Source: Chloroflexota bacterium (GTDB lineage: Bacteria > Chloroflexota > Anaerolineae > Anaerolineales > Villigracilaceae). From it: a stretch of 64,000 bases of DNA. The stretch spans positions 1-64,000 of the forward strand of contig VGNE01000012.1 in the NCBI GenBank assembly GCA_016866215.1. Reading direction: 5' to 3'. Position numbers and translations under genes: made by a program. Below, one piece after another: positions 61,197 to 63,850 of the stretch (its first letter is position 1; the number at the start of each line of letters is the position of its first letter). Under the pieces are notes generated by a model. It searched no databases and had not been told where the DNA came from. It saw nothing but the letters and a program-made list of their open reading frames with translations.

Positions 61197-61290
61197 TCCC
61201 GTCATTACGAGGGCGACAGCCCGAAGCAATCTCTCATTAAGTTTGGGATCGCTTCGTCGCAAAGATCAAGAGCGCTCCTCGCAATGACAT
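61197..61290. repeat. Dispersed palindromic repeat (GTCATTGCGAGG family)
   Basis: gtcattacgagggcgacagcccgaagcaatctc...gggatcgcttcgtcg...gctcctcgcaatgac. Confidence 0.7.
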
Positions 61291-62312
61291 CACAACAACC
61301 TCTGCTGTCCCTCTTCCGTGTAAACAAATCCCAAATGATCATACGCGGACTTGGTGGCGACGCGCCCTTGCGGTGTGCGATCAAGAAAGCCGAGCTGCAA
61401 GAGATACGGCTCGACCACATCCATGATGGTATCCTGTTCTTCGCTGATGGACGCGGCGATGGTGTTCAAGCCGACCGGGCCACCACTGTATTTTTCGATG
61501 ATGGTTTTTAGCACGCGGCGGTCTACATCATCGAGGCCAAGCGTGTCCACTTGCAAGAGATCCAGTGCTTCTTTGGCGACATTTTTCGTGATGACACCAT
61601 CCGCGCGGACTTGGGCAAAATCCCGCACGCGGCGCAACAAGCGCAAAGCAACACGCGGAGTCCCACGGGCACGACTTGCCATTTCTATGATGCCGTCTTT
61701 TTCGGCTTCCACTTTCAACATCCCTGCAGCGCGTGTGACAATTGCCTGCATCGCGTTGAGATCGTAATAATCCAGACGATAGACAGCACCGAAGCGCGCC
61801 CGCAATGGGGCGGTTACAAGCGCAAGCCGGGTTGTGGCGCCGACAATGGTAAAGCGCGGCAATTTCAAGCGAATCGAACGCGCCGAAGGTCCTTTGCCAA
61901 TGACGATATCGAGCGCAAAATCTTCCATGGCGGGATAAAGAACTTCCTCCACGGCCCGGCCCAAACGATGGACTTCGTCAATGAAGAGCACATCGCCCGC
62001 GCGCAAGTTGGTGAGGATGGCGGCCAGGTCGCCTGCGCGTTCGATCACAGGCCCAGCCGTCACTTTGACATTGACGCCCATCTCATTGGCAAGTAGGTGC
62101 GCGAGAGTCGTTTTCCCTAACCCCGGCGGCCCATAAAATAAAACGTGATCCAGCGCTTCGCCGCGTTTGCGCGCCGCCGCAATGAGAATGGATAAATTCT
62201 CCTTGACCTGATCCTGCCCGATCAAGTCTTTCATTCTCTCAGGACGCAAGGCGTTATCTACGCGATCATCGGGTTTGGATTCGGGGTCGAGGGGACGTTG
62301 GATATTACTCAT
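61290..62312 (-). CDS. ruvB: Holliday junction branch migration DNA helicase RuvB
   Basis: [57 protein letters not shown]...[41 protein letters not shown]. Confidence 0.97.
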
Positions 62313-62378
62313 AGCGGAGATTATAACAATAAACCACCTCCCAATTTTCAATTAAGGAGAGAAGCGCTTCAAAATCAA

Positions 62379-62410
62379 ACATGGATGACCCAACCTTCGG
62401 TCATCCATGT
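62379..62410 (-). terminator. Hairpin after the riboswitch array, possible expression-platform terminator
   Basis: Minus: ACATGGATGACC gaaggttg GGTCATCCATGT followed by TTGATTTTG (weak U tract). Confidence 0.5.
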
Positions 62411-62424
62411 GAAAGGATTTGCTC

Positions 62425-62520
62425 TTCGGCAGTCTGGCGATCATGATCACGAAAAAATAATTTTGTGATTACAGACCCATGACTTTGCGTCATCAGGTTT
62501 CCCTGATTTTGCCTTTCGGC
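62425..62520 (-). ncRNA. GEMM/cyclic-di-nucleotide riboswitch aptamer 3 of 3
   Basis: Minus: CCGAAAGGCAAAATCAGGGAAACCTGATGACGCAAAGTCATGGGTCTGTAATCAC...GATCGCCAGACTGCCG. Confidence 0.8.
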
Positions 62521-62610
62521 AGTCGGTCGGTCCTGACCAGCTAACTTCGCTGGTTTTAGACGCTCTGACTTTGCGCCGTCACGCTTTCGCGTGATTTTGC
62601 TTTTATCGGC
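62515..62610 (-). ncRNA. GEMM riboswitch aptamer 2 of 3
   Basis: Minus: CCGATAAAAGCAAAATCACGCGAAAGCGTGACGGCGCAAAGTCAGAGCGTCTAAAACCAGCGAAGTTAGCTGGTCAGGACCGACCGACTGCCG. Confidence 0.75.
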
Positions 62611-62694
62611 AACCCTGGTAATCCTGGCTCAGTTCAGCGTTAGATTCAGGGCTTTGCGCCACCGGGTTTTCCCGGTTTTGCTCTTTATCGGAGC
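62605..62694 (-). ncRNA. GEMM riboswitch aptamer 1 of 3
   Basis: Minus: CTCCGATAAAGAGCAAAACCGGGAAAACCCGGTGGCGCAAAGCCCTGAATCTAACGCTGAACTGAGCCAGGATTACCAGGGTTGCCG. Confidence 0.75.
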
Positions 62695-62700
62695 ACTATT

Positions 62701-62729
62701 ATTATCGCATTTTTTTCCATTAATTTCAA
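62701..62729 (-). promoter_or_regulatory. Sigma-70-type promoter driving the riboswitch array
   Basis: Minus: TTGAAA (62729-62724), 17-bp spacer, GATAAT (62706-62701) with an upstream TG. Confidence 0.6.
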
Positions 62730-63850
62730 TCACTCACTTGTTCTAAAAATACGATTTCAACCGTCATACCCCAGCGCAAACGGGGATCGGTTTCATCAAC
62801 ACGAATGCGGACGGTGTAAAGAATATCGCCGCCGAGTTGGGTATACGCCTTGCTGATCTCGATCACAGTGCCTTTCAATTGCAAATCTGACAGGGCATCT
62901 GGACGGAGTATCACTTTTTGTCCTTCAACCAGTTTCACAACCTCCAGCTCGGTGATGTCGGTCGTTTCGACCACCCACGCGCTGAAATCCGCGATGCTCA
63001 CAGCGCGGGTTTCCATGCCGGCCTGCTCGCCGGCTTTCACATTTACATCAGCCACCACGCCGGCAAAAGGCGCCACGAGTACATAATTTGAAAGCGCATC
63101 ATATGCCGCATCCAGATTGGTTTTCGCGAATGCAAGTTGATCGGCGTTCGGTCCATCCAAACTTATTTCATATTGATATTTCGCTTCAGATTCTGCGGCA
63201 AGCGCGGCTTCATACGCGGCTCGGACTGTGTCGCGGTCGCGCATATCTTTTTCAAAATCTCGCTTTGCCTGATTCAAATCCTCCTGCGCCTGCTCAAGAG
63301 CATCCTCAGCATTTTTACGTTTGGAATTATCCTTATCGAGATCTTTATATTTATCGAACTCTTTCTGGGCGTCTTCCAGATCCGCCTTGCGATCTTCAAT
63401 CTCAGCCTGGGCATCTTCGATGCGGTCTTCGATTGCGGTGACATTCAAATCTTCCCATTTTTTCTCCGCTTGTGCGCGGACGACTTGCGCCTCCATGTAA
63501 GCCTGCCAGAGTCTGGCGCGCTCTCCGCTCGCATTGCGGATCAGCAGATCATAGGCGTTTTGAGCGAGGACAAGCTGCGCCTCAGCCGCGCCCGCATTTG
63601 CGAGGCGCGCGAGAACATCTCCCTCGCTGACGGTGTCTCCCGCTTTCACCAACACCTGCTCCACCACCCCGCGCACCTGAAAGGACAGGTTTGCAGCGCG
63701 AATGGGTTCAAGCCTACCCTCCGCAATCACTTCATCAGCTGCGACAACCTGCTCGGGCGCAGGGGTTGCCTGCGGAACATTTCCACACGCCGCAAGCAAA
63801 AGCGCGAGGATTGCGATCAATGTAACGAAACTAAAGATATTTTTTTTCAT
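62726..63850 (-). CDS. RND/ABC efflux periplasmic adaptor (HlyD/MFP family) lipoprotein
   Basis: LALLLAACGN lipobox; VRGVVEQVLVKAGDTVSEGDVLARLANAGAAEAQLVLAQNAYDLL; long coiled coil; VLVAPFAGVVADVNVKAGEQAGM. Confidence 0.85.
   Translation of the reverse strand: MKKNIFSFVTLIAILALLLAACGNVPQATPAPEQVVAADEVIAEGRLEPIRAANLSFQVRGVVEQVLVKAGDTVSEGDVLARLANAGAAEAQLVLAQNAYDLLIRNASGERARLWQAYMEAQVVRAQAEKKWEDLNVTAIEDRIEDAQAEIEDRKADLEDAQKEFDKYKDLDKDNSKRKNAEDALEQAQEDLNQAKRDFEKDMRDRDTVRAAYEAALAAESEAKYQYEISLDGPNADQLAFAKTNLDAAYDALSNYVLVAPFAGVVADVNVKAGEQAGMETRAVSIADFSAWVVETTDITELEVVKLVEGQKVILRPDALSDLQLKGTVIEISKAYTQLGGDILYTVRIRVDETDPRLRWGMTVEIVFLEQVSD

Follow-up and report, generated by a model that had tools for sequence, protein, structure and literature searches.

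The 64,000-nucleotide (nt) stretch of Chloroflexota DNA considered here, hereafter the window, carries on its minus strand an array of three consecutive GEMM-I units, which are aptamers of the cyclic-dinucleotide class. The array lies between a gene for an HlyD-like membrane-fusion protein on its 5' side and ruvB on its 3' side (proteins assigned by Pfam), in a source genome of 3.74 Mb and 128 contigs. All positions follow the numbering of the window, and the region examined was 62371-62745. The array and its flanking signals consist of the following elements:

62724..62729, minus strand: -35 element TTGAAA of the array promoter, with TTG invariant in 60/60 arrays
62701..62709, minus strand: extended -10 element (TGC)GATAAT; the start predicted from the spacing is at ~62694, on the 5'-most bases of the closing helix
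62691..62695, minus strand: 5' strand of the closing helix, TGCTC, pairing with 62424-62420
62605..62692, minus strand: GEMM-I unit 1, RF01051 score 52.4 bits, nt 20 is A at 62682
62515..62611, minus strand: GEMM-I unit 2, RF01051 score 46.6 bits, nt 20 is A at 62601, middle of P3 non-standard
62425..62523, minus strand: GEMM-I unit 3, RF01051 score 71.9 bits, nt 20 is G at 62513, the unit nearest to the consensus
62420..62424, minus strand: 3' strand of the closing helix, GAGCA, pairing with 62695-62691
62371..62410, minus strand: terminator-like 12-bp hairpin followed by TTTGATTTT

Promoter, units and fold of the array

GEMM-I units were identified with RF01051, the Rfam covariance model for the cyclic di-GMP (c-di-GMP)-I class, which has a gathering threshold of 35 bits. 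A preliminary description of this DNA had placed three GEMM-I aptamers on the minus strand, assigned them to the cyclic-dinucleotide class and suggested a covariance-model check; with 3/3 units above the threshold, both the number and the class are borne out. For unit 2, the 46.6 bits come from the genome search; a scan of this unit by itself gave 39.2 bits, and both values exceed 35 bits. The RF01051 scan of the window listed only units 1 and 3, as adjacent units share 7-9 nt of their model spans. The same description had proposed a promoter of the array's own and a downstream 12-bp hairpin, and these too were found. The promoter is sigma-70-like (TTGAAA at 62729-62724, a 17-nt spacer and GATAAT at 62706-62701) and its hexamers are conserved together with the array, the G, A, AA and T of the extended -10 being invariant or nearly so across 60 arrays. 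The arms of the hairpin lie at 62410-62399 and 62390-62379.

Of 63 arrays, 61 have directly on their 3' side a hairpin with a folding energy of -10 kcal/mol or better. Its sequence is clade-specific (CAGGGATGACC... in one form, CCTGCCGTTG...CAACGGCAGG with a T-run in another and AAAGAACTGC... in a third), and the stem is retained. Conservation spans promoter, array and hairpin, and ends past the hairpin. All three forward frames contain stop codons in 58/58 arrays.

The units do not have P1 helices of their own, since the CCGA that ends one unit starts the next, and the three GEMM cores therefore share one closing stem. This helix joins what are predicted to be the first transcribed bases to the bases after unit 3. 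The folding energy of the 328-nt RNA is 5.65 standard deviations better than that of dinucleotide shuffles. For a test of covariation, 58 arrays were aligned to a structure drawn by hand with 69 pairs, of which 62 belong to the three GEMM-I cores and 7 to the closing helix. In this alignment 93.3% of the paired cells are paired, a figure partly built in by deriving the structure from one member, and 50/69 pairs show two-sided changes, which are not built in. The covariation score was 0.331, compared with 0.170 for shuffled alignments and no more than 0.087 after sliding of the 3' partners. Compensatory changes occur in 5/7 pairs of the closing helix, for which the genus has GCTC/GAGC, genus g20 and some others GCACTT/AAGTGC, and family f14 TGCATCC/GGATGCA. 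RNAalifold, run unaided, returned 69 pairs, 51 of them with two-sided changes, plus the hairpin 3' of the array.

The P2 hairpin of unit 2, TCACGCGAAAGCGTGA (62579-62594), is also present in unit 1 of genomes G102 and G137 and in unit 3 of G109, and looks as if it had been swapped between units.

Distribution and gene context

GEMM-I RNAs are common in the source family of Anaerolineales, with at least one in 116/152 genomes. The named relatives identified through RuvB are Chloroflexi/Anaerolineales metagenome-assembled genomes. A DNA search with the 272-nt array of a relative found arrays of 270-280 nt in about 60 genomes of this family, each with a single full-length copy, and the lower-scoring matches were mostly single GEMM-I units. 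A second family, f14, has a homologous triple in two genomes; a class-level search with the f14 array gave no further families, at a blastn sensitivity that could miss weak or partial relatives. Other tandem GEMM-I pairs in the family, ~170 nt apart, were considered as arrays with a hidden middle unit and rejected, as those that were read are ordinary aptamer-terminator-aptamer pairs in front of secreted-protein genes. The source genome has three single GEMM-I riboswitches elsewhere, which precede a trypsin-like secreted protein (L002), a secreted protein and a signal-peptidase-like gene (L003), and a transposase-like open reading frame (ORF) (L004).

The genes around the array are not constant. 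ruvB is the next gene in 33 genomes; elsewhere it is an MBOAT acyltransferase gene followed by an AlgX-like gene, a gene for a response-regulator protein, a gene for a GH25/LysM protein, or others. The next gene is even convergent in some genomes: purA in G058, an XDH-like gene in five g20 genomes and a DnaJ-like gene in G138 and G149, with G094, whose convergent ORFs gave no Pfam match, as a weaker case. The pairing of the array core is 92% intact where the next gene is convergent, compared with 95% in front of ruvB. In the window three further elements belong to the surroundings of the array:

62728..62745, minus strand: conserved block TAGAACAAGTGAGTGATT, directly 5' of the -35 element and touching it, overlapping the 3' end of the HlyD-like gene
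62320..62325, minus strand: TATAAT of ruvB's own, apparently leaderless promoter, outside the putative RNA gene
61290..62312, minus strand: ruvB, the downstream neighbour (RuvB by Pfam), with its ATG at 62312, probably expressed independently

In 45/45 distinct ruvB loci, whether from the genus or from beyond it and with or without the array, a TATAAT lies 12-13 nt 5' of the ruvB ATG, and from its sequence ruvB looks like a leaderless gene with a promoter of its own that does not depend on the array. The position of this TATAAT at -12/-13 also suggests that a leaderless ruvB mRNA is a general trait of these Chloroflexota. In G150 (L066, oriented 1366-1450) tandem copies of ACATCGTGCCCGCAGGGT stand directly before the ruvB -10, and in several relatives, too, the TATAAT is preceded by CCCGCAGGG.

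The most serious alternative to an independent RNA is a cis-acting triple-tandem riboswitch, in which the ligand would control the hairpin as a terminator and thereby the read-through into ruvB or whichever gene comes next, with three units giving a sharper response as in Bc3-5 of Bacillus thuringiensis. Such cis-acting triple c-di-GMP-I arrays are documented (PMC4759541), a terminator-like hairpin is indeed present 3' of the array, and ruvB follows on the same strand in ~33 genomes. Against this, the next gene is convergent or unrelated in many genomes, ruvB has its own leaderless-type promoter everywhere, and there is one hairpin for three units and not one per unit. A CCTGGC/GCCAGG register between aptamer and hairpin is seen in many of the family's single riboswitches, whereas a coarse longest-complement test across the arrays found no complementary register that stays constant between the hairpin and unit 3; in the same test the longest hairpin-aptamer match had a mean of 6.2 in singles and 5.2 in arrays, with overlapping distributions. 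The array does not precede one conserved target gene as part of its 5' leader, and we regard cis control as unlikely. For ruvB in particular, which the preliminary description had taken to be under the array as its regulatory leader, such control is not supported, given the varying or convergent next gene and ruvB's own promoter, which is present in 45/45 loci; the array ends in its hairpin 5' of that promoter. The frequent proximity of array and ruvB looks like a shared neighbourhood. In the limited set of papers searched, we found no link of a c-di-GMP riboswitch to ruvB.

In the window the array is directly 3' of the HlyD-like gene, and the conserved block overlaps the last codons of that gene, as for a 3' untranslated region (UTR) or attenuator of the upstream gene (HlyD-like or guaB); this is highly improbable, as the upstream gene changes (HlyD, guaB, others) and the promoter hexamers stay.

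The block itself, TAGAACAnnTG(A/T)GTGA, precedes the array -35 at 62728-62745 in the window and at the same place in ~50 arrays. Its left half equals the LexA-type palindrome TAGAACATGTGTTCTA, which is present at two promoters in the source genome; in the genus its right half does not match that box, and we give the block no weight. A link to the SOS response or another regulator is possible. lexA itself has CAGAACAGACGTTCG between its -35 and -10. Two related small membrane-protein genes (G000:C25:47646, L248; G000:C83:4155, L249) stand behind perfect TAGAACATGTGTTCTA boxes located between the -35 and -10.

Specificity bases and possible ligands

In the GEMM-Ib riboswitches of Geobacter, a change of nt 20 from A to G shifts the selectivity from cyclic GMP-AMP (cGAMP) to c-di-GMP (PMC6456294), and the same base has been used to call c-AMP-GMP aptamers (PMC9481103). 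Across 60 arrays, nt 20 is A in 49/60 first units and 55/60 second units, and in third units it is G in 44/60 (C in 11, A in 4). The commonest combination for units 1/2/3 is A/A/G (37/60), and the f14 arrays have A/A/G as well. The A20 that characterizes GEMM-Ib (cGAMP) aptamers is accordingly present in units 1 and 2 of the window and of most arrays. Ordinary GEMM-I units aligned from the family have G at this position in 29/30 cases, and the sole A20 among these 30 singles is found in one riboswitch (L031, G111:C10). All three units retain A47 and C92 (54-60/60), unit 3 at 60/60 and 59/60, respectively. Unit 3 combines G20, A47 and C92 with a GAAA loop.

From these bases we infer that unit 3 would bind c-di-GMP, and that units 1 and 2 would probably accept 3',3'-cGAMP or else a relaxed set of such ligands. 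A Hypr cyclase was considered as the source of cGAMP. The source genome has seven matches to GGDEF, the seventh being partial and unread; the six domains read have the canonical Asp and none has the Hypr Ser, so a cGAMP source for the A20 units is not evident among them, other cyclases not having been searched. Co-occurrence of GGDEF domains with the array is uninformative, as GGDEF is present in 57/57 genomes of the genus.

In family f1 the middle of P3 in unit 2 is altered and the P2 loop is usually AAAA and not GNRA; in f14 unit 2 is standard. It could be argued from these changes, together with A20 in units 1 and 2, that the RNA is free-standing and that its GEMM folds serve as architecture or as protein-docking modules, ligand binding having been lost in units 1 and 2. 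This appears quite improbable, as A47 and C92 are still conserved in both units, A20 is the functional cGAMP-specificity base in Geobacter, and the f14 arrays retain a standard unit 2 with A20.

A proposed free-standing RNA and its relation to known systems

We propose, with a probability of roughly 0.68, that the array is part of a free-standing RNA gene, ~320 nt long, with its own promoter, one closed fold of three GEMM-I units and its own hairpin, the product of which would act away from its locus. That it is a separate RNA gene is very likely. Sequence comparison shows that the array is kept as a unit whatever gene lies 3' of it. Transcription would start at ~62694, at the closing helix, and stop at the hairpin, releasing an independent RNA of ~320 nt, and the units would bind cyclic dinucleotides, c-di-GMP in unit 3 and probably cGAMP or the relaxed set in units 1 and 2. 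The least certain step is the action off the locus. The RNA may be loaded with ligand and so store or buffer the signal, a mode of action we put forward only tentatively, or its shape and partners may change with the ligand, in either case without being a switch for ruvB. A more elaborate version is rather doubtful: a trans-acting RNA with two A20 pockets and one G20 pocket that would serve as a buffer or comparator of two second messengers, with no gene in cis.

Several points weigh against a free-standing, ligand-binding RNA. The T-tract of the hairpin (TTTGATTTT) is weak in many members of the genus, and leaky read-through could still matter at the ~33 arrays that precede ruvB on the same strand. 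A few genomes of the genus have GEMM-I riboswitches and lack the array. None of the six GGDEF domains read is of the Hypr type, and unit 2, with the middle of its P3 off consensus in f1, might not bind ligand.

Known riboswitches are, with few exceptions, assessed through the gene that follows them. If the proposal is true, the array is a sensor RNA conserved for itself, and RNAs that bind cyclic dinucleotides can function as free molecules; until now this hypothesis has rested on merRNA, from a single lineage. The repeated A/A/G pattern would give a direct handle on whether one RNA reads two second messengers, and this in Chloroflexota, which are common in wastewater and sediments and in which such signalling has been little studied.

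In the limited set of papers searched we found no description of this array, nor of any stand-alone GEMM-I RNA that is trimeric, has a single fold, is widely conserved and differs between its units at nt 20. Triple arrays (Bc3-5) and a stand-alone GEMM-I RNA (merRNA) are already known. Triple c-di-GMP-I arrays have been reported in two studies (PMC4759541, PMC9481103), with 12 c-di-GMP-I triplets counted in one study (PMC9481103).

The closest counterpart is merRNA of Bdellovibrio bacteriovorus, a 445-nt non-coding RNA with a c-di-GMP (GEMM-I) riboswitch that was proposed to be a c-di-GMP reservoir (PMC3627812). Like merRNA, the array appears to be a GEMM-I-bearing non-coding RNA without a conserved downstream ORF, a self-contained unit whose neighbours vary. 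Unlike merRNA, which was not found outside Bdellovibrio, it spans many genera and two families, and it has three units in one closing helix with mixed nt 20, merRNA being compared here by its description only. With Bc3-5 it shares three consecutive GEMM-I aptamers; those, however, are three complete cis riboswitches in the 5' UTR of cspABCDE (PMC4759541), whereas the units of the array are joined head to tail, share a single terminator and lack a fixed target gene. The A at nt 20 is shared with the Geobacter GEMM-Ib cGAMP riboswitches, which are single or tandem cis switches in a host with the Hypr cyclase GacA (PMC6456294, PMC8835794); the array differs in mixing A20 and G20 units in one RNA, next to six GGDEF domains read of which none is Hypr. 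Neighbouring GEMM-I aptamers of the G20 and A20 types also occur in the mixed series of adenosylcobalamin (AdoCbl), c-di-GMP and c-AMP-GMP riboswitches, where, unlike in the array, each cluster is described as acting independently in cis with a terminator of its own (PMC9481103).
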